The position numbers were made by a program, and so were the translations under genes. Positions 4,252-38,696 of a DNA stretch of 41,038 nucleotides are shown one piece after another (position 1 is the stretch's first letter; each line of letters opens with the position of its first letter). The notes under the pieces were generated by a model that was not told the origin of the DNA, did no database searches, and saw nothing but the letters and a program-made list of their open reading frames with translations. This DNA is from Gammaproteobacteria bacterium. GTDB taxonomy: Bacteria > Pseudomonadota > Gammaproteobacteria > Thiohalomonadales > Thiohalomonadaceae. The stretch covers positions 1 to 41,038 of the forward strand of contig QKED01000028.1 in assembly GCA_003252455.1 (NCBI GenBank), in the 5' to 3' direction.

Positions 4252-5726
4252 ATGCCCCCACCCCGCACCAGCCACCTCTCCCTGCTGCGCTCCATCGCCC
4301 TCCCGGTGGTGGTGAGCGCCGGGCTGTTGCTGCTGGTGCTCGCCAGCCTGGTGCTGATCACCTCGCGCAGCCTGGAGCGCACCACCCCGCTGGAGCAGCA
4401 CCTACAGGTGGTGCAGCGGGTGCAGGACCAGATCCTCGCCATGCAGCACGTCGCCCTGCGCGGCTTCGACCCCTCCACCCCGGTGGAGCGGGTCACCCTC
4501 GCCCTGCTGCACCGCGAGCTGGCCGCCCTGACCCTGGAGCCGGGCCTGCTCACCCAGCGCGCCCACCACCTGCTGGCGTCGGCGCTGGTGCTGCTGGAGT
4601 CCAACGCCATGGCCCCGCACGAGGCGCTGCTGCGCGGCATCGGCCTGCTGCACGAGGCGCTGGTGGAGGAGAACCACGCCCACACCGCCCTGCTCCACGC
4701 GGTGCAGGGGCAGGCACGACTGGAGAAGCGCCTGGCCGCCGTGGCGCTGGTCTCCATCCCCCTCGCCGCGCTGCTGGTGCTGTTCCTGCTGCGCCGTCGC
4801 TTCCTGCTGCCGCTGGCCAACCTCAACGCCCTGCTCACGCGCCTCGGCGAGGGGCGCTACACCCCCGCCGAGCTGACCGACATCGACCCGGTGCTGGAGC
4901 CGCTGGTGGCCAACTACAACCAGATGACCACGCGCCTGGCGCGCCTCGAAGCGGAGCGTCAGGCGCGCCAGGCGGCGCTGGAGGCGGAGGTGAAGGCGGC
5001 CACCCGCGAGCTGCTGGCGCACAACCGCAGCCTGGCCCAGGCCGAGCGTCTCGCCGCCGTGGGCGAGATGGCCGCGAGCATGGCCCACGAGCTGCGCAAC
5101 CCCCTGGCCGGGGTGCAGATGGCCCTGGCCAATCTGCGCCAAGAGCTGGGCCAGGGGCAGGGCCAAGGGCTGAGTGAGGGCGATGCGGGCGAGCGCCTCG
5201 ACCTGGTGGCCAACGAACTGACACGCATCACCGGGCTGATGAACAGCCTGCTCGACCAGGCGCGCCTCACCCCGGAGGCCGACACCCCCGTCGCCCTCGC
5301 CCAGTGCATCGACGAGGTGCTGGTGCTGGCGCGCTACCAGCTGCCGAGCACTATCCAACTGCACGCGCAGATCCCTGAAGGGCTCTGCGCCCGCCTGCCC
5401 GAGGGGCGCCTGCGTCAGGCGCTGCTCAACCTGGCGCTCAACGCCGCCCAGGTGATGCCCGATGGCGGCGAGGTCAGCGTCAGCGCGGGTCACGACGAGC
5501 GACACCTCTGGCTCGCGGTGACGGACCAGGGGCCCGGCTTCCCCGCCGAAGTGCTACAGCGCGGTGTGCGCCCCTTCGCCAGCGCGCGCCAGGGCGGCAC
5601 CGGCCTCGGCTTGGCCACCGTGCGCCGCCTGGCCCAGGACCTCGGCGGCAGCCTGCGCCTGGAGAACCTCGCCCCCCAGGGGGCGCGGGTCACCCTCGAA
5701 CTCCCCTACCATCCAGGAGATGCGCC

Positions 5727-5730
<4 letters not shown>
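4252..5730 (+). CDS. Membrane sensor histidine kinase of an NtrC-type two-component system, 492 aa
   Basis: The N-terminal membrane helix (about residues 14-36), a helical periplasmic region of about 125 residues and a second helix (about 163-182) are followed by a HAMP-like linker and coiled coil. The HisKA box is MAHELRNPL with the phospho-accepting His at about residue 279. The catalytic domain has an N-box (LLNLALNAAQVMPDGGEV), a G1 box (DQGPGF) and a G2 box (GGTGLGL). The kinase should phosphorylate the response regulator whose GTG start overlaps its stop (GTGA, 5727-5730). A TATAAT sequence at 4218-4223 could be a -10 element, but no good -35 is seen. The architecture is that of ZraS/AtoS-like sensors of envelope or metal stress. 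The signal is unknown. Confidence 0.92.
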
Positions 5731-7100
<1,370 letters not shown>

Positions 7101-7137
7101 ACCGGGTGAGGTGACCGCCGGGGCGCGGCAATGAACG

Positions 7138-7169
7138 AAAAAAGCCCCTCACCCCGAAGGGTAGAGGGG
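7138..7169 (-). terminator. Rho-independent terminator of the Hsp20 gene
   Basis: Read on the minus strand, a stem CCCCTC(T)ACCC / GGGTGAGGGG with a TTCG loop is followed by GCTTTTTT. It lies about 50 nt beyond the Hsp20 stop codon. The A6 run is on the wrong side to terminate the plus-strand response-regulator operon. Confidence 0.85.
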
Positions 7170-7219
7170 AAGGTGCAGTTGAGGGGAAAGGGTTGCGGGT
7201 GCGGGGCACCGGGCCCCGC

Positions 7220-7810
7220 TCACCCCGCCTTGGGGATGGTGATGGTGAGCTGACCGGCGTCGAATTGGTCATGCATCTTTGCCGCGTCCACCGGGCCCGG
7301 CAGGGTGAAGTCCTGCTGGAAGGCGCTGGCGTAGTGTGTTTGGCCGTGCGGGTCTTGCCCCTGGACTTGGCCCTTGGCGGTGATGGTCAGGCGCTGTCCG
7401 TCGAGGTGCACCTTGACGTCGTTCTGCGCCACGCCGGGGATCTGCGCCTTGACCACGTAGGCGTCGCCGGCGTCTTTGAGCGTGACCTGGGCGGCAGCGC
7501 TGCCGCCACCTTGATCAACGCCCTGAAACAGCTGATGCATATGGGCCTTCATGCGCGCCATCTCGGCATCCATCACCGTCCAGGGGTCATATTGGGGTGA
7601 GTGGGGGTCGATGGCGGCGAGCGGCGGGACCACGGGGTCCTGCGCCAGTGCCGTCGGGGGCATCGCGGCCTGGACCTGGGCTTGGGCCGCCGCAGCGGCG
7701 TCCAGGTGTTGCACCAGGGCGTGGGTGAGGTAGAGCTGGGCACCGGCCGTGGCGAACAGGGCCACCACACCGCACCCCAGCAGGGCACGTTTGATCACGA
7801 GGTGATTCAT
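7220..7810 (-). CDS. Exported or membrane-anchored small heat-shock protein (Hsp20), 196 aa
   Basis: The alpha-crystallin domain occupies about residues 105-196: AYVVKAQIPGVAQNDVKVHL, then GQRLTITAKG and a final strand GQLTITIPKAG. Unlike cytosolic IbpA-type proteins, this one begins with a basic then hydrophobic stretch (about residues 6-30) resembling a signal peptide or membrane anchor, so the chaperone probably works in the periplasm. The start ATG at 7810 is chosen because AAGGAGGAG lies just upstream; a longer reading to 7885 would overlap the predicted transcription start. A -24/-12-like element lies about 80 bp upstream (7890-7906). The gene converges with the two-component operon and has its own terminator. 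Its role is probably to hold unfolded envelope proteins. Confidence 0.88.
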   Translation of the reverse strand: MNHLVIKRALLGCGVVALFATAGAQLYLTHALVQHLDAAAAAQAQVQAAMPPTALAQDPVVPPLAAIDPHSPQYDPWTVMDAEMARMKAHMHQLFQGVDQGGGSAAAQVTLKDAGDAYVVKAQIPGVAQNDVKVHLDGQRLTITAKGQVQGQDPHGQTHYASAFQQDFTLPGPVDAAKMHDQFDAGQLTITIPKAG

Positions 7811-23430: not shown

Positions 23431-24663
23431 CTATGCAGGAAAGAGCAGACGCTCGTTGAACTGCCCGCGCATGCAGTGGTTGGAACTCATGGCCGAGGCA
23501 TAACCACCGATGTTGATGAAGGCGAGCAGGTCGCCCTCGGCCAGCGGTGGCAGGGCCACGTCATGGGCCCAGACGTCGAGTGCCTCGTTGATGTTACCAG
23601 CGATGCTCACCGTCTCCAGCGCCTCGGCGGCGTAGACCTCCGCCACAGGCCCGGTGATGCGCACCGGAACCGGCTCGCACGGGAGTTGGTAGAAGAAGGG
23701 CTCGACGGCCAGGTTGAAGCCGCCGTCCACGCCGACATAGATCGTCTCGCGGCGCTTCTCCACGCTGTTGACACGCAGGATCAGCACGCCGCTGTCCTTG
23801 ACCACGAAGTCACCGGGCTCCACGCACACCTCCAGCCCACGCGGGCCGAAGTGGCGGCGGATGATGCCGGCCCACTGCTCCAGGTCGAGCGGACGGTCGG
23901 TGAGCACATGGGGCAGACCGAGGCCGCCACCCATGTTGACGCTACGCAGCCCCGGCACCTGGTCGATGAACCAGAGGCACTCCTCGACCACCTGCTCCCA
24001 CAGCGGCAGTTGCGGGGGCAGGTAGCCGATACCCACATGGAAGTGGATGCGCACCACCTTGAGGTCGTACTGCTTGGCCATCGCCAGCGCGTCGGCGAAC
24101 TGCTCACGGTAGATGCCGAACTTGGTGGTACGCCCACCACTGTACTGCAGCAGCTGGTTGTTGCCGTAGCTCACCCCCTTGCCGGGGTTGATGCGCAGGC
24201 CGATCTCGCGACCCGGGCAGCGCTGGCCGAGGCGGCGGATGGAGCTGAGCGAGTCGCAGTTGATCAGCGTCTCGGGGTGACGGGCGAGGATGTCGAGGTC
24301 CGTCTCGGACATGGCCGTAGCGGTATAGGAGACATCCCCGGCACTGAAGCCACAGGAGAGCGCGTGGTGCAGCTCCTGCGGCGAACAGGCGTCGATACCG
24401 CACAGCCCGGTGCCACGCAAAAAGGTGAGCAACGGGGCGAAGCGGTTGGCCTTCATCGCATAGAAGATGCGATAGGCGAGCCCGGTGCTGCCGAGCGCGG
24501 CGTGGATCTGCTCCAGCTTGGCACGCACGCGTGCCGCACTGTAGAAGAACGTAGGGGTGCCCATCCCCTCGGCCAGATGGCCGAGGGGTGAGCCGGCGAG
24601 GTTCAGCTCGCCATCGACGAAGGTGAGGTCGTCGCGTTGCCACCAGAGAGGCTGTGCACTCAA
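23431..24663 (-). CDS. Fold-type III PLP decarboxylase homologue with altered active site, 410 aa
   Basis: The fold is that of ornithine/diaminopimelate decarboxylases: PLP Lys71 in FYAMKANRF, the HFHVGIGY segment (about residues 207-213), the glycine loop NMGGGLGL (about 245) and a C-terminal beta domain ending MSSNHCMRGQFNERLL. Key residues differ. The usual EPGR is EPGD (residues 282-285). The G-x-x-C-E-x-x-D element that supplies the catalytic Cys reads GNINEALD, with Asn at about 359. The Tyr of SSNY is His396. TTG at 24663 is the start: GGAGG lies 7 nt upstream and TTGA overlaps the SET gene stop. It may decarboxylate an unusual or protein-bound substrate, or be a non-decarboxylating relative. 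Converges with kefC. Confidence 0.82.
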   Translation of the reverse strand: MSAQPLWWQRDDLTFVDGELNLAGSPLGHLAEGMGTPTFFYSAARVRAKLEQIHAALGSTGLAYRIFYAMKANRFAPLLTFLRGTGLCGIDACSPQELHHALSCGFSAGDVSYTATAMSETDLDILARHPETLINCDSLSSIRRLGQRCPGREIGLRINPGKGVSYGNNQLLQYSGGRTTKFGIYREQFADALAMAKQYDLKVVRIHFHVGIGYLPPQLPLWEQVVEECLWFIDQVPGLRSVNMGGGLGLPHVLTDRPLDLEQWAGIIRRHFGPRGLEVCVEPGDFVVKDSGVLILRVNSVEKRRETIYVGVDGGFNLAVEPFFYQLPCEPVPVRITGPVAEVYAAEALETVSIAGNINEALDVWAHDVALPPLAEGDLLAFINIGGYASAMSSNHCMRGQFNERLLFPA

Positions 24664-25127
24664 CCGCGTGCCTCCAGGTGACGCAGACCCTCCTCGTTGA
24701 CGCGCTCCTTGCGCCCGGTGATCCAACCACGGCAGTTGGAGGAGCCGCACAGGCAGGGGAACTGACGGTAGAGGAAGTCCTCGGTAGAGGCGTAGTCCAT
24801 GGTCAGCGAACCCTGCGCGGGGATATCCTCCAGGGCCCACACCTCCAGTGCCTGCATGTCGACGAAGACATTCGGTGCGCAGGAGTGGGCCAGATAGCCG
24901 ACGAACTCCAGATCGAGCAGGTGCACGCCGGGGTTGATCTGCAGGGTGTGCTGGGTGCGATAGGGGAGCACGGTGCCGGTGAGGCGGGCGATCATCTCGC
25001 CGCGCTTGTAGTCACGCAGGGCGTAGACCGCCTTGCCCTTACCGGGCTCACGCTCTTCGACCTTGTAGTCGTGGGGATTGGGGAATCCGAAGTCAGGCTC
25101 CGGGGTGAAATCGGCTTGAATCAACAT
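24660..25127 (-). CDS. Small bacterial SET-domain protein (putative lysine methyltransferase), 155 aa
   Basis: The full SET fold is present: SAM-binding segment EPGKGKAVYALRDYKRGEMI (about residues 27-46), the core LAHSCAPNVFVD (about 79-90, like NHSCxPN), catalytic Tyr112 in LTMDYAS, and a post-SET zinc cluster PCLCGSSNCRGWI (Cys125, 127, 132). SET proteins methylate Lys side chains with SAM. The single-domain size and the translational coupling to the decarboxylase homologue (TGA overlapping TTG) suggest that it modifies that protein or a shared substrate. ATG 25127 has a GGGAGT site upstream. Bacterial stand-alone SET proteins are widespread but mostly uncharacterised. Confidence 0.88.
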   Translation of the reverse strand: MLIQADFTPEPDFGFPNPHDYKVEEREPGKGKAVYALRDYKRGEMIARLTGTVLPYRTQHTLQINPGVHLLDLEFVGYLAHSCAPNVFVDMQALEVWALEDIPAQGSLTMDYASTEDFLYRQFPCLCGSSNCRGWITGRKERVNEEGLRHLEARG

Positions 25128-26745: not shown

Positions 26746-28314
26746 ATGGCCATTGAGATTATTGGATCCCTCTCCGACACGGGTTATAGCAGCGAGACCA
26801 TCGAACGGGTGCTGTTGGAGGGGGGACTGCGCCTGACCCAGCATGGGGATGCCTTCACCGGACGCCCGGGGACACGCATGGTGGTGCACGGTGAGCATGT
26901 CATCAAGCTGCGCACCGAGATCAATCCCCTCACCCTATCCGACGCCAAGCGCTTCGTCGCCGGGGCCCTGGCGCGTGAACGCGAGATCGGCATCCACCAT
27001 CCGTCCAAGACCTGGTTCCTGCTCCCCGAGGCCGGTACCGAGGTGCCGCGTATCGCCAATATCACCCCGCGTCTCGCCCCCCTGCACGAGAGCGGCAAGC
27101 TGATCCAGGAGTTGGGGGAAGGGCGCTACTTCCAGCACGTCTGCGCCCTGCTCGACCTCTACCTCAAGTCCGCCTCCGAGCATCAGGTAGGGCTCGACAT
27201 CAGCCTGTCGAACTTCGCCGTGGACACCACGGGCCATCTCTACTACGTGGACGACGATATCTACGGCTGGGACGAGTTCCACTCCCTGACCCACTTCCTC
27301 GGCATTCTGGTGCGCATCCTACCCTTCACCGAGGCGCGCATCGATCAGCTGGCCGCCTGCACCCGTCAGGCGGTACTCAATCACTTCCGCGACCCGCACT
27401 GGATCAGCGTCATAGCCGAGGACCTACGCTCACTCTTCGTCGCCGAGGAGCGTAAGCCCCTGCTCAAACAGATGGTCAAGGCGATCACCGAGGACCGCGC
27501 CCTCTCCCTGCACGTGGAGGATCAACCGGTCATCACCCGTGCCGTGGGCGATATCGCCCCTGAAGTGGAGTTCAACTTCAAGATCGCCCTGATGGCCGAC
27601 ATTCACGCCAATTCGGCGGCGCTCGAACGGGTTCTCGCCTATATGGACGACCACAAGATCGAGCGCGGTTACGTCCTTGGTGACGTGGTCGGCTACGGCC
27701 CCAACCCGGTCGAGTGCATCGAACTGCTGCGTGCCCGCCCACAACTGGTCACCATCAAGGGCAACCACGACCACGCCGTCGCCAGCGGGAGTTACGGGCT
27801 CGGCTTCTCCTCCACCGGTCGGCACGTGGTGGAGTGGACCGCACAGCAGCTTGATGCGAGCGCCCGGCAGTGGCTCTCCGACCTGCCACTCTACATCACC
27901 GGCACCGACTGGCTCGGCGTACACGGCTCACCCAACGACAAGACCTTCTTCAACGCCTACGTCTATGACATGACCTACGAGGACAACCTCGACACCCTGG
28001 AGGAGCGGCGCATCCGCTTCTGCTTCCACGGCCACTCCCACCTGCAGAAGGTCTACTACCGCACCAAGAGCGACGACGGCAGCAAGACCGATCGCCATCA
28101 GGACCTCACCCAGTACATCAGCGCCCTGGTCTGCCCAGGCTCGGTCGGTCAGCCGCGCAGTGGCATCGCAGGGACCGAGTTCGCCCTCCTCGACCTGGAG
28201 ACCTGGGGGCTGGAGTTCCTGCGCCTCGACTATGACATCCTGCGTACCGTGGAGCGCATGCGCGAACTCAACTTCCCCACCAACTTGGCCGATCGCCTGC
28301 TCCAGGGCACCTAA
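26746..28314 (+). CDS. Kinase-like domain fused to a calcineurin-like metallophosphoesterase, 522 aa
   Basis: Residues 1-275 show kinase-fold features: VIKLRTEI (candidate nucleotide Lys near residue 50), GLDISLSNFAV with the Asp151-x4-Asn156 pair seen in aminoglycoside-phosphotransferase-like kinases, and YYVDDDIYG (169-174). It could be active or degenerate. Residues 280-522 form a complete metallophosphoesterase: Asp285-x-His287 (MADIHAN), Asp313 (GDVVGYG), Asn340-His-Asp (GNHDHA), His393 and GHSH (429-432). Joining the two in one chain is unusual and suggests a bifunctional modifier or a kinase-regulated phosphatase. ATG 26746 has GGAG upstream and marks the true start. The gene converges with the Roadblock/GTPase operon. 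Confidence 0.82.
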   Translation: MAIEIIGSLSDTGYSSETIERVLLEGGLRLTQHGDAFTGRPGTRMVVHGEHVIKLRTEINPLTLSDAKRFVAGALAREREIGIHHPSKTWFLLPEAGTEVPRIANITPRLAPLHESGKLIQELGEGRYFQHVCALLDLYLKSASEHQVGLDISLSNFAVDTTGHLYYVDDDIYGWDEFHSLTHFLGILVRILPFTEARIDQLAACTRQAVLNHFRDPHWISVIAEDLRSLFVAEERKPLLKQMVKAITEDRALSLHVEDQPVITRAVGDIAPEVEFNFKIALMADIHANSAALERVLAYMDDHKIERGYVLGDVVGYGPNPVECIELLRARPQLVTIKGNHDHAVASGSYGLGFSSTGRHVVEWTAQQLDASARQWLSDLPLYITGTDWLGVHGSPNDKTFFNAYVYDMTYEDNLDTLEERRIRFCFHGHSHLQKVYYRTKSDDGSKTDRHQDLTQYISALVCPGSVGQPRSGIAGTEFALLDLETWGLEFLRLDYDILRTVERMRELNFPTNLADRLLQGT

Positions 28315-28430: not shown

Positions 28431-28469
28431 CACAAACGCCGCGAAGGGGCACCCTTCGCGGCGTTTGTG
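28431..28469. terminator. Perfect 18-bp inverted repeat ending the Roadblock operon
   Basis: CACAAACGCCGCGAAGGG and CCCTTCGCGGCGTTTGTG match over all 18 bases with a GCA loop. It sits 20 nt beyond the stop of the last Roadblock gene. The stem is followed only by GTTTGTG-like bases on the minus strand, so it is a strong hairpin with a weak T-tail. Confidence 0.75.
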
Positions 28470-28488: not shown

Positions 28489-28899
28489 TTAGCCCGGTAC
28501 GATCTGGGCGATCTGCGGCAGGGCGCCACGCAGGGCGGCCCAACCCATACCCAGGTTGGCCTTCTTGCTGGTGATCAGCACGACCATGGAGTTGGGCTTG
28601 CCGGGCACCACGGACATGAAGTGGAAGGTCTTCTCGGTGCTCATCTGAATCTCCTGGATGGTACCGGTGACGGGCACGCCACGCTGCTGACCAAGCAGCT
28701 TCTCCACGCCGTTCACGCCTTTGCCACGGAACATGTCCACGGCGGCGGCGGCCACTGCGTCGAGGTAGCTCTGGGTAAAGTAGGGAACATTATGGGCAAC
28801 GCTCAGGAGCAGACCCGTGGAGAGGTCTACGATCGCCACGCCGAGGGCACCGTCCACATCGGCGAGGATCCCCTGGGTCAGTTCATTCATGTTGGCCAT
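28489..28899 (-). CDS. Roadblock/LC7-family protein (Roadblock 2), 136 aa
   Basis: The protein has the Roadblock/LC7 pattern: a helix, then GALGVAIVDLSTGLLLSVA, a central helix with YLDAVAAAAVDMFRG and a final sheet MVVLITSKKANLGMGWAAL. Such proteins act as GTPase-activating or scaffold partners of Ras-like GTPases (MglB, CvnB). The ribosome site AGGAG precedes ATG 28899. A gap of 177 nt with its own copy of a repeated upstream motif separates it from the first Roadblock gene, so it may have its own promoter. Its partner is probably the GTPase at 29536-30066. Confidence 0.88.
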   Translation of the reverse strand: MANMNELTQGILADVDGALGVAIVDLSTGLLLSVAHNVPYFTQSYLDAVAAAAVDMFRGKGVNGVEKLLGQQRGVPVTGTIQEIQMSTEKTFHFMSVVPGKPNSMVVLITSKKANLGMGWAALRGALPQIAQIVPG

Positions 28900-28989
28900 G
28901 GATTACTCCTATTGTGATTTTGTAGGTTGTTAGGCCCAACGCTCTCTTCGAAAGAGTTTGTGGACTGTACAGAAAGATATACTACTGAA

Positions 28990-29002
28990 CTCGAACCGGA
29001 AA
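28990..29002 (-). promoter_or_regulatory. Repeated motif TTTCCGGTTCGAG upstream of Roadblock 2
   Basis: The same core (TTCCGG[GT]TCGA on the minus strand) is found at 31132-31143 and 31199-31209 before the first gene of the operon, with a weaker form at 31222-31232. Its placement 91 nt upstream of Roadblock 2 suggests a shared regulator binding both transcription units. Confidence 0.4.
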
Positions 29003-29076
29003 GCGGCAGCCCCACTCTGGCACCAAAGTTCACGGTACCGGTGTTCACGGCTCCACAGACTATAGCACCAGTTTGC

Positions 29077-29532
29077 TTAGGCTGTATGGCCTACCGCATC
29101 GGCGGCCTGTCGGGCACGCAGTACGATCTGGTCGGCAACGCGTCGGGCGTGGGCCAGGGTTAGACCCAGATTGGGTTTGATCTTGGTGAAGATGGTCAAC
29201 ACCATGCTACCGGCATGCATCACGTAGATGTTGCCCTCCATACCCTCGATGAGTACGTTCATGGTCTTGCCCTTCTGCGCCTCGCGGGCAAGCGTGGAGC
29301 TGAGGGCGATGAGCGCGCTACTCATGGCGGCGAAGCGCTTGGCATCGAAGCCATGGGGCAGGACCTCGGCCCAAGGGTGACCATCGGCGGTGGTGATCAT
29401 GGCCGCCATGATGTCATCGGAGTCGTTCAGCAGCTCGCGCAGGATCTGCATGCACTCGGCACGCCGGTCCTCACGGCCCTCGTCGTGGGATGCACTGCCA
29501 ACCTTATTGATGATCTCTGAAACCAGATCCAT
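29077..29532 (-). CDS. Roadblock/LC7-family protein (Roadblock 1), 151 aa
   Basis: A charged N-terminal helix (about 25 residues) precedes the Roadblock fold: RAECMQILRELLNDSDDIMA, AAMITTADGHPWAEVLP, a helix FAAMSSALIALSSTLAREA and a hairpin NVLIEGMEGNIYVMHAG. The Arg/Lys-rich end includes LGLTLAHARRVADQIV. It lies 3 nt after the GTPase gene and should be translated with it, which supports a direct complex, as for MglA-MglB and CvnD-CvnB. It differs enough from Roadblock 2 to suggest a heterodimer or separate roles. Confidence 0.88.
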   Translation of the reverse strand: MDLVSEIINKVGSASHDEGREDRRAECMQILRELLNDSDDIMAAMITTADGHPWAEVLPHGFDAKRFAAMSSALIALSSTLAREAQKGKTMNVLIEGMEGNIYVMHAGSMVLTIFTKIKPNLGLTLAHARRVADQIVLRARQAADAVGHTA

Positions 29533-29535
29533 TAC

Positions 29536-30066
29536 TTACACCTCTGCCTGCAAAATCGCTAAGAGTGTCTGCACCAGGAGGCGCACCTGATCGCCATCTC
29601 GGGCATCCAACTCCATCATGGGGATGATCTGTCCACGTTCCATCAAGCGGTCCTGAAGGTTCTCGTAGGCCTGGGGGTTACCCAGGTCGGTACGGGTGAT
29701 GCCGATGACCGCACCGGTCTTCTCGACAAAACTGGCGAAGCGATCGAGATAAAACTCCATATCGGCAACCGGGTCGGGACGCACGGCATCTATCAGTAGG
29801 ATCAGCCCGAGGCCGCCCTCGCTGAGGATCTCCCACATGAAGTCGAAGCGGTCCTGACCCGGGGTGCCGTAGAGGTGGATATAACTGCCGTCTTCGAGGG
29901 TGAAGAAGCCGTAATCCATCGCCACCGTGGTGGTCTGTTTACGCTCCTTGGTCTCGTCGGTGGCGTCCACGTCGGTGGAGACGATGGGGATATCGCTTAG
30001 ACAGGAGATAGCCGTGGTCTTACCCGAGCCTACCGGACCTGCAAAGATGATCTTATCTGCATCCAT
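29536..30066 (-). CDS. Ras-like GTPase of the COG2229/CvnD type, 176 aa
   Basis: The P-loop is GPVGSGKTT (residues 10-18). The switch I region holds QTTTVAMDYG (about 44-53), nearly the CvnD signature TTTVAMDFG. Switch II is YGTPGQDRFDFMW (about 66-78), with Gly in place of the usual Asp of DxxG, as in conservon GTPases. The guanine-specificity motif is TRTD (124-127) rather than NKxD. These features place it with CvnD-type GTPases that pair with Roadblock proteins. It lies 15 nt after the 335-residue gene and 3 nt before Roadblock 1, and should switch between nucleotide states in signalling. Nucleotide specificity is not certain. Confidence 0.92.
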   Translation of the reverse strand: MDADKIIFAGPVGSGKTTAISCLSDIPIVSTDVDATDETKERKQTTTVAMDYGFFTLEDGSYIHLYGTPGQDRFDFMWEILSEGGLGLILLIDAVRPDPVADMEFYLDRFASFVEKTGAVIGITRTDLGNPQAYENLQDRLMERGQIIPMMELDARDGDQVRLLVQTLLAILQAEV

Positions 30067-30081
30067 TGGAAAATAGGTCCC

Positions 30082-31089
30082 TCAACCTCTTGAGAGTCGC
30101 TTGGCGATCATGGCGAAGAGCCCCTGGCGCTTGGAGGTGGGCTTCTCCTTCTCCTGCGCCACGGGCTTATCCTGAATCAGTGTGAACTCGACCAGGCCGA
30201 GGATCAGCAGGATATGAAAAAAGTCGATCACCAGCCCCAGCTCCACCCCGGAGGTCTCGTGGAGCTCCTGGAGGCTCATGCCGTTACGCGTGACCATGGC
30301 ACCCAGGCGCATGAACTCGGGGCGTGAGTGACGTGCCGGGAAGCGCGGCCAGCTGGTGAGTTTGAAACGGGAGTGCAGGGAGGTGCCACTGTAGTCCTTG
30401 CCCGGGGCGCGCAGATAGGCGGCGCTCCACACCAGTGCGGCGATCGGGCGGGGTTTGAGCAGAGCAACGGTGCTGGTGAAGGCCGTCGCATCGAGTTTGG
30501 CGATCTTCACCCCGCTCCCCCCCTCACTGCAGAGGGCCGCGAGAGCGGCATCGTCGAGATCGGTATAGATCAGGCGCTGACGGCCATCGATGCAGACACT
30601 GCGCCCGGCGTCACTGTACTGCAACAGTGCAGCATCATCCACGGCGACCACCATAGCCCCGAATAGGCTGTCGGGCACGGCGCGATCACCGTTGCTAACA
30701 GGGGCAGCGGTGCCATTGGCGGCAGGCGGTGGCTTATTCGCGGCGGGTGCTACCACAGGCGCGCGGGCGGCGGCCTCCAAGTGATTGGTATATTTGTCGA
30801 ACAGCTCCTGCAACATCTCCCGCATACCCTGCACGCGCAGGGGGCGCTCCAGACACATCAGGGCGCCAGGCACCCGGCCACGGGAGCCATCCACCTGCAC
30901 CAGAACCTGACTACCGAGCCTCTCGTAGGGGGTCCCGGCGTCCACCAGGACCACCTGGCCACTGGTATCCCCCTGCGCGAGGGTGTGCACCTTTATGCCA
31001 TAGGCCGCCATGAGATTAGCGGCGACCGTCAGCACGGTGCGCTCCTTCTCATCGACGCCTACAGTCGAAATGCTCACAACATCGGTCAT
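30082..31089 (-). CDS. Receiver-like/winged-helix-like regulator of the GTPase operon, 335 aa
   Basis: The first 105 residues have a beta-alpha pattern like a receiver domain without clear phospho-Asp (VVLVDAGTPYERLG, LMCLERPLRVQGMREMLQEL resembles the KP segment and last helix). A Pro/Ala linker (about 108-135) follows. The middle part contains QYSDAGRSVCIDGRQRLIYT. The C-terminal region (about 255-315) holds FMRLGAMVTRNGMSLQELHE and DFFHILLILGLVEFT, compatible with a winged helix, perhaps like the DUF742 wHTH of CvnC. It is the first gene of the operon, 15 nt before the GTPase. I do not recognise a named family; the domain reading is by eye. Confidence 0.7.
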   Translation of the reverse strand: MTDVVSISTVGVDEKERTVLTVAANLMAAYGIKVHTLAQGDTSGQVVLVDAGTPYERLGSQVLVQVDGSRGRVPGALMCLERPLRVQGMREMLQELFDKYTNHLEAAARAPVVAPAANKPPPAANGTAAPVSNGDRAVPDSLFGAMVVAVDDAALLQYSDAGRSVCIDGRQRLIYTDLDDAALAALCSEGGSGVKIAKLDATAFTSTVALLKPRPIAALVWSAAYLRAPGKDYSGTSLHSRFKLTSWPRFPARHSRPEFMRLGAMVTRNGMSLQELHETSGVELGLVIDFFHILLILGLVEFTLIQDKPVAQEKEKPTSKRQGLFAMIAKRLSRG

Positions 31090-31389
31090 TGTCTGACTCT
31101 GGTCTACCTATTGTTCTGAACCTGGACCCGGCTCGAACCGGAAGTCTTGGGCTTGAAGGGATCCATCGCCCTGTGCAATCCGCTGGCGTGCCGTGCTATC
31201 GACCCGGAAGCGACGCTATTTCTGACCGGAAAGGCCGATTAGCCCCGTTAAGATACTGCATTCAAGCTAAAAGCGCAGCACCTGTGGGTTCAATCACATC
31301 ATCGATCATTTTTCTATCAATTCAGTCAGTTATCAATCCGTTGATCTACTTAGCCAAAATTTGCCTGCGCCTGAGCCGACCTCAGACAC
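31090..31389 (-). promoter_or_regulatory. Upstream region of the Roadblock operon with repeated motif
   Basis: This 300-bp stretch has no gene. It holds three copies of a motif (minus strand TTCCGG[GT]TCGA) at 31132-31143, 31199-31209 and, weaker, 31222-31232. AT-rich DNA with TTGATA sequences at 31300-31350 could include the promoter, but no -35/-10 pair is convincing. Confidence 0.45.
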
Positions 31390-31424
31390 AAAAAAAGGCC
31401 GGGCGATCATGCATCGCCCGGCCT
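31390..31424 (-). terminator. Rho-independent terminator of adk
   Basis: On the minus strand AGGCCGGGCGAT and ATCGCCCGGCCT form a perfect 12-bp stem with a 5-nt loop, followed by T7. It begins 24 nt beyond the adk stop codon. Confidence 0.95.
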
Positions 31425-32850: not shown

Positions 32851-35010
32851 ATGGTCATTCAGCGCCCCTTGATCCCCGCCGTGCTCCTGCTCACCGCCGC
32901 TCTCATCCTGGTGTGGTGGACCACCCTCCCCCCCACCACGGTGTCGGTGCGCGAGGCACTCCCCACGCAGCAGACGACCGGTATCCATCTGCGCTTCGGG
33001 CACAACGTGCAGATCGACAGCTCCATGCACGCGGCGGCCCTACGCTACGCCCAGTTGGTCCACGAGCGCAGCGCGGGACAGGTGACCATCGAGGTGTTCC
33101 CCGCTCAGCAGCTCGGCAACGACCACCAGATGGTCGAGATGGCACGTCGGGGCGAGCTGGATATCCTGGTCACCCCGACGGCGAAGATGAGCGTGCCGGT
33201 CCCGGCCATGCAGTACGCCGACCTGCCCTTCTACTTCCCCACCAAGGAGGACCTCTACGCCATGCTCGATGGTGAGCCGGGACAGATGCTGTTGGAGCGT
33301 CTGCACGCCATCGGTCTGGTGGGGGTCACCTTCTGGGGCAACGGTTTCAAGCACTTCACCGCCAATCGCCCGCTGCTCGACCCACAGCAGTTCCAAGGCA
33401 TGCGCTTTCGGACCATGAAGAGTCGACTCATCATGGAGCAGTTCAGCGCCCTCGGCTCGACCCCGGTACCCATCGATTTCTATGCCACCCGCCAGGCCCT
33501 TGCCGACGGCGTGGTGGATGGCCAGGAGAATCCGCTCATCGCCATCTACAGCATGGGCTTTCACCAGGTGCAGAGTGACCTCACCCTGAGCGAGCACGCC
33601 TACCTGGGGTATGTCTTCTCGCTCAGCGCCAAGACCCTGGAACGCCTGCCTCCCGATGCCCGACAACTGTTGATCGACACGGCCAAAGAGCTCACCCCCT
33701 GGCAGCGTGAAGAGACCGAGAAGCGGGAACAGGAGCTGGTCGAGGCGATCCGCGCCAGTGGGACGCGGGTCCACACCCTAGGTACAGAGGCGAAGGAGGC
33801 GCTGGCCAAACGCCTGCGGCACATCCCCGAACGCATGGAGGCGACCCTCGGGCCGGCCCTCCTCTCCCTCACCGACGAGCTGCTCTACCGACGCCACCCA
33901 CTCCACCCGACCCCCATCACCATCGGCCTCAACAGCGACCTCTCCGGCGATGCACTGGTCGCAAGCCTGGCGATCAAGCGCGGTGCCCAATTGGCGATCG
34001 ACGAGATCAACGCCGCGGGCGGTGTGCTCGGTCGCCCCTTGCGCCTGTGGGCCGAGGACCATCGCGGCCTCCCCTCGCGCGGCATCACCAACCTGGAGGA
34101 GTTCATCGCCGATCCAGAGGTGGTCGCCGTCCTCACCGGCCTACACAGTCCGGTGGTACGCGCCAGCGTACCGCTCGCCTCCCACGCCCAAATGCCCCTC
34201 TTGGCCGCCTGGTCCGCCGCCGCCGAGGTGACCGAACACGGCCTGGCGCCCAACCCTGTGTTTCGCATCTCGGCCAACGACCGCCTCGTGGGGCCCTATC
34301 TGGCCGACTATATCGCCGCCCACGCCCAGCGCCCCGTGCTCCTGTACGAAAACACCCTATGGGGTCGTGGCAATCAGGAACAGCTACGCACCTCGCTGGC
34401 GCAACACAAACTCACCTTTGTGCACATGGAGAGCTTCAACCGGGGGGAGCGCGACCTCCAACCCCAGCTGCGCCGCATCCGCGAGCACCACCCCGACCTA
34501 CTGGTACTGGTGGCCAACCCGAGTGAGGGGCGCGAGGCCCTGCGGGCCCTCTCACAGCTACCCAACCGCTTCCCGGTGCTCTCGCATTGGGGGCTCAACG
34601 GGGTCGACTTCTGGGGCACCAGCCGTGAGATCCTGGAGACCATCGACCTCACCCTGTTCCAGACCTTCAACTTCAACGCCACGCAGCGCCCCCAAGCCGC
34701 CGCCCTGGCAGCCCGCTATCGCGCCCGCTATGGTCTAGAGGAGGACGAGGAGATCCTCGCCGCCCCCGGGGTCGGCCAGAGCTACGACCTGGTGCGCCTT
34801 CTGGCCATGGCCATCACCCAGGCAGGCAGTACCGAGCGCAGCACGGTGAGCCATGCACTGGAGCAGATCGGCGACTACGACGGGGTGATCAAACACTATC
34901 GCGCGCCCTTCGATGCCGAGCGGCACGATGCCCTCGACACCCTCGACTATCACCTGGTGCACTACGATGAACACGGCCACCTGATCCCCATCGGCAACCG
35001 CGCCCCATGA
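32851..35010 (+). CDS. Fusion of TRAP-type (DctP) and branched-chain-amino-acid-type (LivJ) solute-binding domains, 719 aa
   Basis: A single N-terminal membrane helix (about residues 8-25) anchors the protein. Residues about 45-340 are a DctP-type TRAP binding domain: [20 protein letters not shown], then [20 protein letters not shown] and [18 protein letters not shown], with [13 protein letters not shown]. Residues about 353-700 are a type I periplasmic fold (Peripla_BP_6): [38 protein letters not shown]-like segments and [18 protein letters not shown]. No permease genes are nearby. Its stop overlaps the start of a hybrid histidine kinase gene by 4 nt, so it is more likely a sensor input than a transporter part. 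One polypeptide carrying both folds is unusual. Confidence 0.92.
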
Positions 35011-38000
35011 GTCAGACAACGGCACCCCAGCAACGCATCCAGCGCCGCGTGATCGGCAGCGTGGCCGGGTTTATCGCCCTCTCCATGCTGCTCATCACCC
35101 TGCTGAGCGCCGTGTTGCTGCAAAACCAGTTGAGCCGGCAGATGGACAACCTGCTCGACACCCTCGCCGACTCGGCCCAGTTGATGCTCGAACGGCACAT
35201 CGGGTATCTGGTCGAAAACACCCAACACCTGACGGAAAACCCCTTCGTCATCAACGGTCTGATGGACCCCACGGGGCGCCAGACCTACCTCCCGCAGCTG
35301 GTCAACAACTTTGCCACCGGGCGCGACGTACTCTCCTTCGCCATGCTCGACTTCGACGCCCGACCACTCTTCTTGAGTGGTCGTGAGAGCGTCAGCTACA
35401 ACGAGTCGAGCGAACTGCGCCGCGCCTTGGCCCTGGGTGAGGTGGCGCTCTACATCGACGGCAGACGCAAGACCCTGGTGGTGGTCGCCCCCATCAGCTA
35501 CTACGCCACCACCCAAGGGGCATTGGTGGTCGAGTTCGACCTCCTCGCGCTGGTCCAACGCAGCAGTCTGCAGGGGCACGAACACCTCTACCGCCTCGAT
35601 CAGGCGGGTCAGGCGCTGCTCAGCATCAATCAGATGGAACAGACCGATTACGCCCTGGTGCGCCACAGCCCTGACAACCATCTGCCCTATCAACAGAGCC
35701 TCAACCTCTATCTCACCCTCGGCCTCCCGGAGAGCCACTTCAGCGCCCCGGTGGGTACCGCCCTCACCCGCTTGGCGCTGCTCAGCACCCTGCTGACCCT
35801 CGCCGCCGTATTCGTCTCCGCCTGGGTCGGTAACACCATCACCGCCCCCATCCTCACCCTCTACCGGCGGGTCAAGGGCGAGGATGTGGCACACCCCAAT
35901 TGCAGCCCCCTGGGTACCGACGACGAACTGGAGGAGCTGGCGCGCGCCTTCGACCAGCGCACCACCGACCTGCGCGCCATCCAAGACGACCTCGAAGTGC
36001 GCGTGCAACTACGCACGCGCGAACTCTCCGCCACCAGCCGCGCCCTCGCCGAGAGCCGCACCATCCTCGAACGGGCCCAGGAGATGACCCACCTGGGGAG
36101 CTGGGTGTGGGAGCTCGGTAGCGACAAGCAGACCTGGTCCGACGAGGTGTTTCGCATCTTCGCGCTCGACCCCGAGCGCGACACGGCCTCGCGCGAGGTC
36201 CTCTCACGCTGCATCCATCCCGACGACCGCGAACGGGTCGAAGAGCGCTTTCGCAGCCTGCTCATCGACGAGGTGCGCCGCATCAGCGTCGAGCACCGCC
36301 TGCTCCTCGCCGATGGTCGCCAACGCCATGTGCAGCAGGTGGTACAACTGCAACTCGACAGCCACGGCCACCCCGAGCGCCTGCTCGGCGCCATGCTCGA
36401 CATCACCGAACGCAAACAGGTGCAACTGGAGCTGGAGTGGGCCAAGCAACAGGCCGAGTCGGCCAACCGCGCCAAGTCCGAGTTCCTGGCCAATATGAGC
36501 CATGAGATCCGCACCCCGCTCAACGTAGTCATCGGCATGTCGCACCTGGCCCTGGAGGGGGAGCTACGCCCGCGCCAGCGCAACTACATCCTCAAGGTGC
36601 ACAGCTCCGCAGTGGCCCTGCTCGGCCTGCTCAACGACATCCTCGACTTCTCGCGCATCGAGGCACACAAGCTCACCATCGAGGCGATCGAGTTCGACCT
36701 GCACGAGACCCTCGGTCAGCTCTCCACCCTGGTCGGTTACCAGGCCGAGGAGAAGGGGCTGGAGCTGCTCTTCGACATCCCCCGCGACCTACCCCACCGC
36801 CTCATCGGCGACCCCCTGCGCCTCGGCCAAGTACTGGCCAACCTCGGCTACAACGCGGTCAAGTTCACCGAGAAGGGGGAGGTGGTGATCCAGGTCAGCG
36901 AGCATCAACGCAGCCACCACACGGTCCACCTACTATTCAGCGTACGCGACACCGGCATCGGCATCAGCCAAGAGCAACAGTCGCGTCTCTTCCGCGAATT
37001 CTCCCAGGCCGACACCTCCACCACCCGCCGCTATGGCGGCAGCGGCCTCGGCCTGGTCATCGCCCGCAGCCTGGTCGAGCTGATGGGCGGCCGCCTCTGG
37101 CTCGAAAGCACCCCCGGGCGCGGCAGCACTTTCTCCTTCGAGCTAAAGCTGCCCCTGGCCGGCAAGAGCTACACCCCCTCGCTCACCGCCCTACCGTTGT
37201 TACACAACATCCGTCTACTCATCGTCGACGACAACAAGGCGGCACGCCACATCCTCACGCGCATGGCCAAGGCCCTCGGCCTGCGCCCCGACGCCGTCCC
37301 AGGCTGCGACGAGGCCCTCGCCGCGCTGCAGACGGCCAACCAGACCGATGACCCCTACCGCGTAGTGCTGATGGATTGGCGCATGCCCGGGCTCGATGGG
37401 GTCCTCTGCTCGCAGGCGCTGGCGGACTGTAGCGCGGCGCCCGAAAGCCCGCTGCCACGCGTGATCCTCGTCAGTGCCCGCGACTTCTCCGACCTGCAGA
37501 GCCACGCGGCGATCCACGCCACCCTGAGCAAACCGGTCACCCCCTCCAACCTACACGAGGCGCTACTCGCCGCTATCGGCATCAGTGCCCCGGCCAAAGA
37601 CGCACTCAGCACCGAGAAGGAGGCGGAGCGCCGCGCCGAGCAGCAGCTCAGCGGCGCCCACCTGCTATTGGTGGAGGACAACGCCCTCAACCAGGAGCTG
37701 GCGCGCGACCTGCTCGCCCGTGTCGGGGTCAGCCTCAGCGTCGCCAATCACGGCAAGGAGGCGCTGGCGCTCCTCGAACAGGAGACCTTCGACGGCGTAC
37801 TGATGGACCTGCAGATGCCGGTGATGGATGGTTACAGTGCCACCCGCGCGATCCGCACCAACCCCGACTACGCCGGGCTACCGATCATCGCCATGACCGC
37901 CAACGTCATGGCCGGTGACCGCGAGCGGGCCCTGGAGGCGGGGATGGACGACCAGATCGGTAAACCGCTCGACCCCCACCTGATGCTCCTCACCCTGGCT

Positions 38001-38696
38001 CAGTGGATCACACCCAAGGCCCAGGCGCGGGTCCCACCGACGGCGGAGAAGGCCCCACGCCTCACGCTCCCCACCCGTATCGAGGGGCTCGACCTCAGTC
38101 AGGCCATCTACAACACCCACGGCCAGAGCAGCACCCTGCTCAAGCTGCTACGCCTGTTCCGCAGCGAGCAGCGGGCGTTCGTCGACCAGATGGCGGCGGC
38201 GCTGGCAGAGGGTGACCACACCACCGCCACCCGCCTGGCCCACACCCTCAAGGGGATCAGTGCCACCCTCGGCGCCCACGACATCGCCGAGTCGGCCAAA
38301 CGGCTAGAGAGCGAGTGTCGCAATCAGGCCGAGGCGTCCGTAATCGAGGCGGCACTCAAGCCGCTCGCCGCGCAGCTCACCGAGCTGCTCGACCACCTCG
38401 ACACGCTCGACCTGGAGCAGATCCCAGAGCCGCCCGTGGCCCCCATGGACAGCGCCACCCTGGAGTCGCGGCTCGAAAGATTAGAGCAGTTGCTAGAGAG
38501 CTACGACACCGAGGCGGTGGATCTCATCGAGGAGCTGGTCGAGCAATTGGCAGGCAGCAGATGGCGTGGTGACCTGATAGACTTACAGCGTCTGGTCGAC
38601 AACTTCGACTTCAAAAGCGCCAAGAGTGGCGTCGCCCGGCTGCGACTGAACATGGCCACCACACCCAAAGACGCCAATGGACGAGAACCCGCATGA
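35007..38696 (+). CDS. Hybrid sensor histidine kinase with PAS, two receivers and HPt, 1229 aa
   Basis: Domains in order: membrane helix (about 15-38), a periplasmic region of about 215 residues, second helix (254-278), HAMP (about 280-330), PAS (about 346-472, [19 protein letters not shown]), HisKA (His499 in [10 protein letters not shown]), HATPase (DTGIGIS and GGSGLGL), receiver 1 (Asp741-742, Asp790, LSKPV), receiver 2 (Glu890-Asp891, Asp934, GKPLD) and HPt (His1079 in AHTLKG). A helical tail of about 100 residues follows. All catalytic residues seem intact, so a full phosphorelay is possible. The start overlaps the binding-protein gene (ATGA) and the stop overlaps the HD-GYP gene. Ligand binding by the fusion protein is the likely input. 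Confidence 0.95.

Follow-up and report, generated by a model that had tools for sequence, protein, structure and literature searches.

A Group 3 MglA-type GTPase operon in a gammaproteobacterial contig and its putative kinase-like/metallophosphatase partner

Introduction

What feeds an MglA-family GTPase whose operon carries no histidine kinase, and what could such a GTPase control? The question is raised by four contiguous genes at 28489-31089 of contig QKED01000028.1 (GenBank assembly GCA_003252455.1), from a gammaproteobacterium of the family Thiohalomonadaceae. The whole stretch of 41,038 nucleotides that was analysed is called the window here, and positions refer to it. According to the list of open reading frames (ORFs), all four genes lie on the minus strand in the order REG, GTPase, RB1 and RB2, with gaps of 15, 3 and 177 bases. 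They encode a protein with receiver-like and winged-helix-like parts (REG), a Ras-like GTPase and two Roadblock proteins. A reading of the ORFs within and around the four-gene unit showed no histidine kinase gene inside it. A first-pass annotation, made from the letters alone, had taken the set for a membrane-free variant of the actinobacterial conservons.

Five groups of MglA proteins were defined by Wuichet and Sogaard-Andersen (2014; PMC4316618, cited here, like the two articles below, from part of its text). Group 3 is nearly confined to β/γ-proteobacteria and carries GTPGQ in G3 and DAR in G5, while its G4 often has no Lys. Its members are coupled to one or two MglBs and to a partner for which Phyre2 gave a receiver-like N-terminus and a winged-helix-like C-terminus, and transcription control by this partner was suggested by the authors. 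The GTPases of conservons form Group 2, which is separate from Group 3 in the published tree (PMC4316618). As described below, the window operon fits a Group 3 MglA system, that is, a kind already described rather than a new one. Two points are new with respect to the literature searched: a neighbouring gene, KP, absent from the first-pass annotation, whose product looks like a fifth member of the system, and evidence against DNA binding by REG. In that search no experimental work on Group 3 was found beyond a Snodgrassella mglB allele and transposon sequencing (Tn-seq) data in the part of PMC11112851 that we cite.

The GTPase and its family

In the alignment, the GTPase shows GPVGSGKT as G1, GTPGQ as G3, TRTD as G4 and DAR as G5; its P-loop, GTPGQ and DAR are intact. 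The two peptides singled out in the first-pass annotation, TTTVAMDYG and GTPGQDRF, correspond to residues 45-53 and 67-74; Gly67 occupies the Asp position of the DxxG motif of Ras, and TRTD replaces NKxD. Both substitutions are indeed present, but they follow a rule of the Group 3 family and are no peculiarity of this protein. The features of Group 1 MglA are missing, since G3 reads GTPGQ instead of TVPGQ and Thr45-Thr46-Thr47 lacks the Arg finger. Pfam assigns the protein to ATP_bind_1 (E 6.2e-12), with Ras under its cut-off at E 0.001, and among PDB profiles Rab GTPases match best, MglA (3t12, E 9.9e-8) ranking under many Rabs. With the Group 3 systems (PMC4316618; Snodgrassella, PMC11112851) the window shares GTPGQ, the G4 without Lys, DAR, two coupled MglBs and a receiver-like/winged-helix partner, the folds of the latter being only probable. 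It differs in that the part of the Group 3 description cited here (PMC4316618) does not mention KP, and in that the REG helix of the window is not like that of a DNA binder.

A tree of 94 GTPase rows places the window protein inside a clade (support 100/99) of 57 Pseudomonadota, two Verrucomicrobiota, one Actinomycetota and 12 further rows, with 21 actinobacterial rows and one Deinococcota row outside. The reference sequences of PMC4316618 are not among the rows, and the actinobacterial loci that were read are of the Roadblock-DUF4388-GTPase kind or similar rather than conservons, so the tree offers no direct comparison with Group 2. The idea of a conservon variant is not upheld, because the family has already been set apart as Group 3 beside Group 2 (PMC4316618) and the GTPase falls in a mainly proteobacterial clade. 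What holds is the broader likeness, namely a GTPase/Roadblock signalling operon without CvnA whose first protein has a receiver-like N-terminus. As in conservons (CvnA-D), an MglA-family GTPase with GTPGQ, a Roadblock protein and a protein of unknown function share one operon; by contrast, the window lacks the CvnA kinase and has two Roadblock proteins, and the search for DUF742 (CvnC) gave no match, either among the four proteins (E <= 1) or across the host assembly (E <= 0.001).

The operon in other genomes

Of 276 class genomes, 53 have a strong GTPase match (E < 1e-28). For the neighbourhood counts, 60 class loci were used (59 of the 91 GTPase matches in these genomes plus one from another search), together with the 80 best of 119 loci from named genomes. 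The class loci are of unequal length, 5-19.5 kb, while the 40 control regions, taken from contigs of the same genomes, are all 19.5 kb. The invariance of QDRFDFMW among the 80 named loci is ascertained, as these loci were found with peptide patterns of the window GTPase.

In 16/60 class loci and 41/80 named-genome loci, the genes for REG, RB1 and RB2 are all found on the strand of the GTPase gene and no more than 3 kb away from it. By the same measure, REG and RB1 accompany the GTPase in 31 of the 60 class loci, RB1 and RB2 without REG in two, REG and RB2 in one and RB1 alone in two, and the GTPase stands alone in eight. Relatives in the same gene order are present in other genomes, and because the set recurs across many named genomes, a chance arrangement is excluded. 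In Acinetobacter the order is GTPase-RB1-REG-RB2 in most loci, and a few differ.

Extra genes also occur. For example, a 210-aa protein is encoded, usually between the GTPase and RB1, in 26/60 class loci versus 0/40 controls; in one of them Roadblock is matched marginally (E 0.009). A fusion of an ABC ATPase with a DSP-type phosphatase accompanies 15 of the 80 named loci, mainly in Burkholderiales, and three of the 60 class loci; in L025 (6538-7887), L039 (6530-7945) and other loci, most of them from Burkholderiales, this fusion, with its DSP/tyrosine-phosphatase-like part, sits inside the operon between the GTPase and RB2. A 345-aa GTPase of L080 appeared to be fused to a Roadblock domain, but the E values of its extension against the Roadblock profiles were no better than about 1e-3 to 1e-2 (Z=1), and the fusion is not claimed.

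The coordinates are given in Table 1. The adk gene upstream is followed by a perfect 12-pair hairpin (31424-31396), and another perfect hairpin follows RB2; therefore the four genes look like one unit. The repeat after RB2 does not appear in the list of the consensus terminator scan, which requires a T run. The promoter-like match at 31336-31308 is at chance level (one found in the region, 1.1 expected), and the Rfam scan of the window gave nothing at gathering score.

Table 1. Features of the operon and its surroundings (window positions)
Feature	Position	Strand	Description	Basis
REG	30082..31089	-	335 aa; residues 1-110 receiver-like, 142-225 middle domain, 241-302 winged-helix-like, linker, C-terminal cationic helix 324-333	AlphaFold2 (AF2) model; homologues adjoining GTPases
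GTPase	29536..30066	-	176 aa; Ras-like, MglA family	Pfam, NCBIfam, PDB profiles; alignment; tree
RB1	29077..29532	-	151 aa; Roadblock/LC7, MglB type, Asp50-Gly51 pair; presumed GTPase-activating protein (GAP)/exchange partner	Pfam; PDB profiles
RB2	28489..28899	-	136 aa; divergent second Roadblock whose DG pair lacks the Asp; presumed to act as a modulator like MglC	hhalign to RB1 profile
Terminator-like inverted repeat	28431..28469	.	Perfect 18-pair; between RB2 and convergent KP gene	
KP	26746..28314	+	522 aa, ATG at 26746; kinase-like domain and calcineurin-like metallophosphatase; proposed fifth component	
Presumed promoter region of operon	31090..31395	-	Between adk hairpin and REG	

The two Roadblock proteins

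The first-pass reading of a four-gene set with a GTPase and two Roadblock proteins is borne out by the ORFs and both GTPase peptides, with RB1 recognized by Pfam (Roadblock/LC7, E 4.6e-12) and RB2 by profile comparison. RB1 also matches the PDB profiles of CvnB5, MglB and MglC. For RB2, Pfam is empty at E <= 1, and its profile is related to that of RB1 (hhalign, E 1.4e-6). Its match to a solved Roadblock protein reaches E 1e-3, and several polyubiquitin chains, which look spurious, score higher in that search. An Asp-Gly pair is present in 21/21 rows of RB1, and the aligned place in RB2 is Ser/Thr-Gly in 21/21. The Asp of MglBs, conserved in Groups 2-5, was predicted to lie within reach of the GTPase (PMC4316618). 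RB1 is presumed from these sequence features to be an MglB-type GTPase-activating or exchange partner, and RB2 is more likely a modulator because the Asp of GTPase-coupled MglBs is lost in it.

The MglA/MglB/MglC/RomR module of Myxococcus is comparable in having a GTPase, an MglB-type partner, a second Roadblock paralogue and a receiver-type protein with a C-terminal helix. However, its GTPase belongs to Group 1 (TVPGQ and an intrinsic Arg finger), and mglA is not near the genes of these partners.

REG as a proposed protein-binding adaptor

The AF2 model of REG, made with 31 rows, has a mean predicted local distance difference test score (pLDDT) of 82, and its topology fits a receiver-like N-terminus and a winged-helix-like part. 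In the receiver-like part a Pro is invariant in all 28 filled rows, and the phosphoacceptor column, filled in 25 rows, has Asp in 6 and Asn in 12. The window REG keeps the receiver residues D13, E14 and D50, while the usual Lys is replaced by Arg82 (Lys in 4/28 rows). No Pfam family exceeds its cut-off, and Foldseek found nothing at E <= 0.001 (best E 5.6e-3, unrelated proteins). VIA-align gave 50 rows at Z 6.1-6.8, mostly aminoacyl-tRNA synthetases, with one receiver. Two points weaken the receiver call: it draws on topology, the invariant Pro and weak profiles (KdpE receiver, E 0.037), and in the fold ranking the NtrC1 receiver (Z 6.4) stands among unrelated folds.

Could a histidine kinase in trans, for instance the hybrid kinase encoded at 35007-38696, feed the GTPase in the manner of CvnA, which would make the operon the equivalent of a conservon? 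The retained D13, E14 and D50 would suit such a route, and the hybrid kinase (read from the translation) and an HD-GYP response regulator (Pfam) lie 4-9 kb away. However, the hybrid kinase is on the other strand, past adk, and adjoins a binding protein and a regulator of its own; the receiver Lys is Arg82; and the relatives whose gene order was read have no recurring kinase gene within the operon. We consider a trans kinase improbable.

The winged-helix-like part was compared with DNA-binding domains. The helix at the recognition position holds 0.74 Lys plus Arg per 15 residues on average (n=31 rows) and none in the window REG, versus 4.4 per 15 in ten OmpR-type domains of the host; for this yardstick 11 of 12 matches were above the cut-off and used, and 10 yielded the helix. 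The Kyte-Doolittle value of the stretch, 2.29, is the highest among the five proteins scanned (2.5 in the hybrid kinase as yardstick), but the AF2 model puts this hydrophobic stretch within the folded domain. Because the recognition helix is hydrophobic and poor in Lys and Arg, contact with a protein rather than with DNA is favoured, and the word regulator of the first-pass annotation, if taken to mean a DNA binder, is not. This evidence runs opposite to the published guess of transcription control. A DNA-binding response regulator gated by the GTPase would agree with the Phyre2 receiver and winged helix of PMC4316618 and with the winged-helix-like end of our model; yet the nearly Lys/Arg-free, very hydrophobic helix, even though the yardstick covers one DNA-binding family, and a phosphoacceptor column with so few Asp make that alternative quite unlikely.

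REG also has a conserved cationic end. A net charge of at least +2 in the last 24 residues was found in 44 of 48 distinct REG tails versus 63 of 200 control ORFs, and such a charge together with a hydrophobic moment of at least 0.5 in 28/48 versus 23/200. The tail count left out seven REG-profile rows (response-regulator-like proteins, fragments, and REG copies away from GTPases), the copies from loci L002, L003, L009, L016, L100 and L102, and duplicate tails. Basic tails are found in 9/82 GTPases and 27/80 RB1 proteins. The case for a special tail is weakened on three sides: basic tails also end 22 of 34 RB2 proteins, the 200 control ORFs are mechanical and not proven genes, and the amphipathy of REG tails exceeds that of shuffled ones only modestly (mean z 0.81; 10/48 below 0.05). 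The tail may be a membrane anchor or a docking helix. In Myxococcus the receiver protein RomR contacts MglC via its C-terminal helix (PMC12719032), although the C-terminal region of RomR is Glu-rich, in contrast to the cationic tail of REG. The description of the system as membrane-free is not safe, because the cationic end of REG might attach to a membrane or to a partner.

A comparable arrangement is seen in the Roadblock-DUF4388-GTPase loci of Frankiales, where the protein flanked by the Roadblock and GTPase genes has a winged-helix-like part (by eye) and a C-terminal helix-like tail, with a charge of at least +2 in 13 of 15 tails; no sequence relation to REG was detected (hhalign E 0.13). 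L072, the only actinobacterial locus scanned with Pfam, is of this kind, and similar proteins precede the GTPase in other actinobacterial loci. In L062, L072-L099 (Frankiales and kin) and L095 (Deinococcales) a DUF4388-like protein adjoins the GTPase, and the basic end LLLRLIAGVRGL, present in most of the 15 aligned, recalls the REG tail.

Two possible relationships of REG domains were tried and dropped. DUF4388 as the source of the middle domain gave hhalign E values of 0.13, 0.073 and 0.042, and the host genome has no DUF4388 at E <= 0.001. A domain common to the N-terminal part of REG and to the response regulator from the adjacent chemosensory cluster reached E 4e-21 with an iterated profile, which had possibly absorbed that protein; an independent profile gave no match at E <= 0.001, and hhalign gave E 0.014. 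Separately, a protein without a Pfam match at 3436-4413 of L083 matches the independent REG profile at 4.7e-6.

KP as a candidate fifth component

The C-terminal half of KP is recognized as Metallophos_2 (E 4.9e-14), and the N-terminal approximately 270 residues have no Pfam family. In this N-terminal part a Lys, a Glu and the motif D-x4-N-x12-D are invariant in 9/9 rows (8 distinct, including the window), the D-N and N-D distances being 5 and 13 in all of them. We take this Lys/Glu/D-x4-N/Asp pattern to be that of kinase-like enzymes, with the spacing of PKA. In the single-sequence AF2 model (pLDDT 49), kinases and phosphotransferases are among the top 50 Foldseek rows, every row having E > 0.4.

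Full-length KP occurs in 10 of the 276 class genomes, all 10 with a strong GTPase match, and five further class genomes have a relative of the phosphatase half only. With the host excluded, 9/9 full-length KP genomes fall within the 52 GTPase genomes among 275 (p 1.7e-7, uncorrected for kinship). KP adjoins the operon in six of the ten genomes. Five of these copies are convergent to the operon (those of the window, L161, L182, L184 and L189), and the sixth, in L167, is in-line, its longest reading starting 41 bases past RB2 on the strand of the operon. On this distribution, KP looks like a fifth member of the GTPase system.

Two observations weigh against this role: the kinase half has no significant match in profile, fold or structure searches, and in 4/10 KP genomes KP and the GTPase are on different contigs. 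Moreover, KP might be a bystander that co-occurs with the operon through joint inheritance in the same lineages. The KP genomes are clustered on the GTPase tree (9 changes versus 16.8 in shuffles, GTPase rows below 80 bits or 130 residues being left out), therefore shared descent is part of the co-occurrence signal; and the neighbourhood test, 5/60 class loci versus 0/40 controls (p 0.07), uses a sample of 40 control regions that cannot prove linkage. Nevertheless, the six genomes in which KP adjoins the operon belong to six different families, with five convergent arrangements and one in-line, and the outer neighbours differ among the four KP loci laid out. We regard joint inheritance alone as an unlikely explanation, though one to be taken seriously.

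A model of the module, its input and its output

Taken as a whole, the module would work as follows, a reading to which we give a probability of about one half. The GTPase would alternate between GTP and GDP states, with RB1 as its MglB-type activator or exchange partner, and RB2, a Roadblock paralogue without the key Asp, would tune RB1 as MglC does. REG would be an adaptor that does not bind DNA, composed of a degenerate receiver, the middle domain, a protein-binding winged helix and the cationic C-terminal helix, which would dock the module to the membrane, the pole or the Roadblock dimer. KP would set the state of one of the operon proteins through reversible phosphorylation, and the output would most likely be surface behaviour, type IV pili above all.

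A more specific version is rather doubtful: the kinase and phosphatase of KP, in one chain, would modify and demodify REG or a Roadblock protein and so set the GTPase cycle, and chemosensory or metabolic input would be passed on to pilus polarity with neither a histidine kinase nor DNA binding. KP, the proposed fifth protein, has two halves that could be assayed together; if it acts on the module, what feeds GTPases that have neither CvnA nor Frz becomes directly testable.

With regard to the output, the host has three PilT-family matches and no FlhA match. PilT is above its cut-off in 53/53 GTPase genomes versus 181/223 others (strong GTPase genomes, PilT, FlhA and genome-size classes were all counted by hand). 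In Snodgrassella, an orphan Group 3 mglB allele was associated with motile flares on soft agar (PMC11112851). In a further locus, L025, a GGDEF-EAL protein that also carries a PAS domain is encoded downstream; it resembles FimX.

As for chemosensing, the same four-gene unit is divergent to a chemosensory cluster in L022, L023, L158 and L170. The cluster of L023 comprises, by Pfam, a response regulator, a CheY-like protein, CheW and a methyl-accepting chemotaxis protein (MCP), and for L022 Pfam covered just the response regulator, the other members being assigned by seeds or resemblance; seeds identified CheY, CheW, an MCP and a receiver protein of about 1270 aa in L158 and L170, with the response regulator in L158 only. 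In the host itself, a cluster on contig C51 contains a 2550-aa ORF besides CheW, an MCP and two CheY-like proteins, and contig C116 has a second CheW/MCP cluster.

Several results speak against a pilus or chemosensory connection. Among genomes of at least 2.0 Mb, the PilT difference shrinks to 52/52 versus 156/169 (p 0.027, uncorrected for kinship). FlhA is also enriched among GTPase genomes (38/53 versus 116/223, p 0.007); therefore the pilus association is not specific and this part of the model is weakened. An MCP gene is nearby in 4/60 class loci versus 0/40 controls (p 0.12), and two of these loci, L156 and L178, lack CheW. No enrichment was found for receiver (8/60 versus 5/40), GGDEF (5/60 versus 6/40) or EAL genes (1/60 versus 1/40), and the window operon has no chemosensory neighbours. 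Co-occurrence with pili was also rejected as proof, as PilT at a permissive threshold is present in 258/276 genomes and is too common, and FlhA, present in 154/276, is itself enriched.

Could the module instead report on heme, flavin or iron sensors, as an oxygen or redox relay? Near the GTPase variants of the 60 class loci, genes were found for PAS proteins (12), PhnD-type proteins (11), protoglobins (4) and globins (4), with none in the 40 controls; these counts are ascertained, the seeds having come from loci of the same sets. Because variants lie near such genes, the input to the module may differ between variants. The PAS, protoglobin and globin counts, together with hemerythrin genes near the operon in two Verrucomicrobia loci, would agree with a redox relay. 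The origin of the seeds takes weight from them, however, and none of these sensors was seen near the window operon, so we hold this relay to be unlikely. Individual examples near Group 3 GTPases are a PAS protein (L146 7033-8241), a PhnD-type binding protein (L150 11244-11801), a protoglobin (L167 12736-13650), a globin (L070 8584-9708) and a hemerythrin (L027 4761-5991).

Other observations

Host contig C21 carries two more REG-GTPase pairs, one of them with a Roadblock gene (L100). On host contig C61 (17000-29000, L101), three consecutive Roadblock proteins are encoded on the minus strand at 4468-5529, 5570-6742 and 6882-7241 of the locus; two of them are long, with a receiver-like N-terminus by eye, and the 12 kb hold no GTPase profile match. 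A second protein of about 525 aa, without a Pfam family, is encoded convergent to or near operons of this type in L022 (7499-9076), L023 (7473-9044), L158 (6823-8424) and L161 (9895-11541), and is counted in 3/60 class loci and 2/80 named loci.

At 23431-25127 of the window, a 155-aa SET-domain ORF and an ornithine/DAP-decarboxylase-like ORF share a strand, and the first overlaps the start of the second, which may be a mechanical artefact of start-codon choice. A single ORF at 32851-35010 contains both a TRAP-type DctP solute-binding domain and a Peripla_BP_6 domain and is directly followed by the 1229-aa hybrid kinase and the HD-GYP response regulator.

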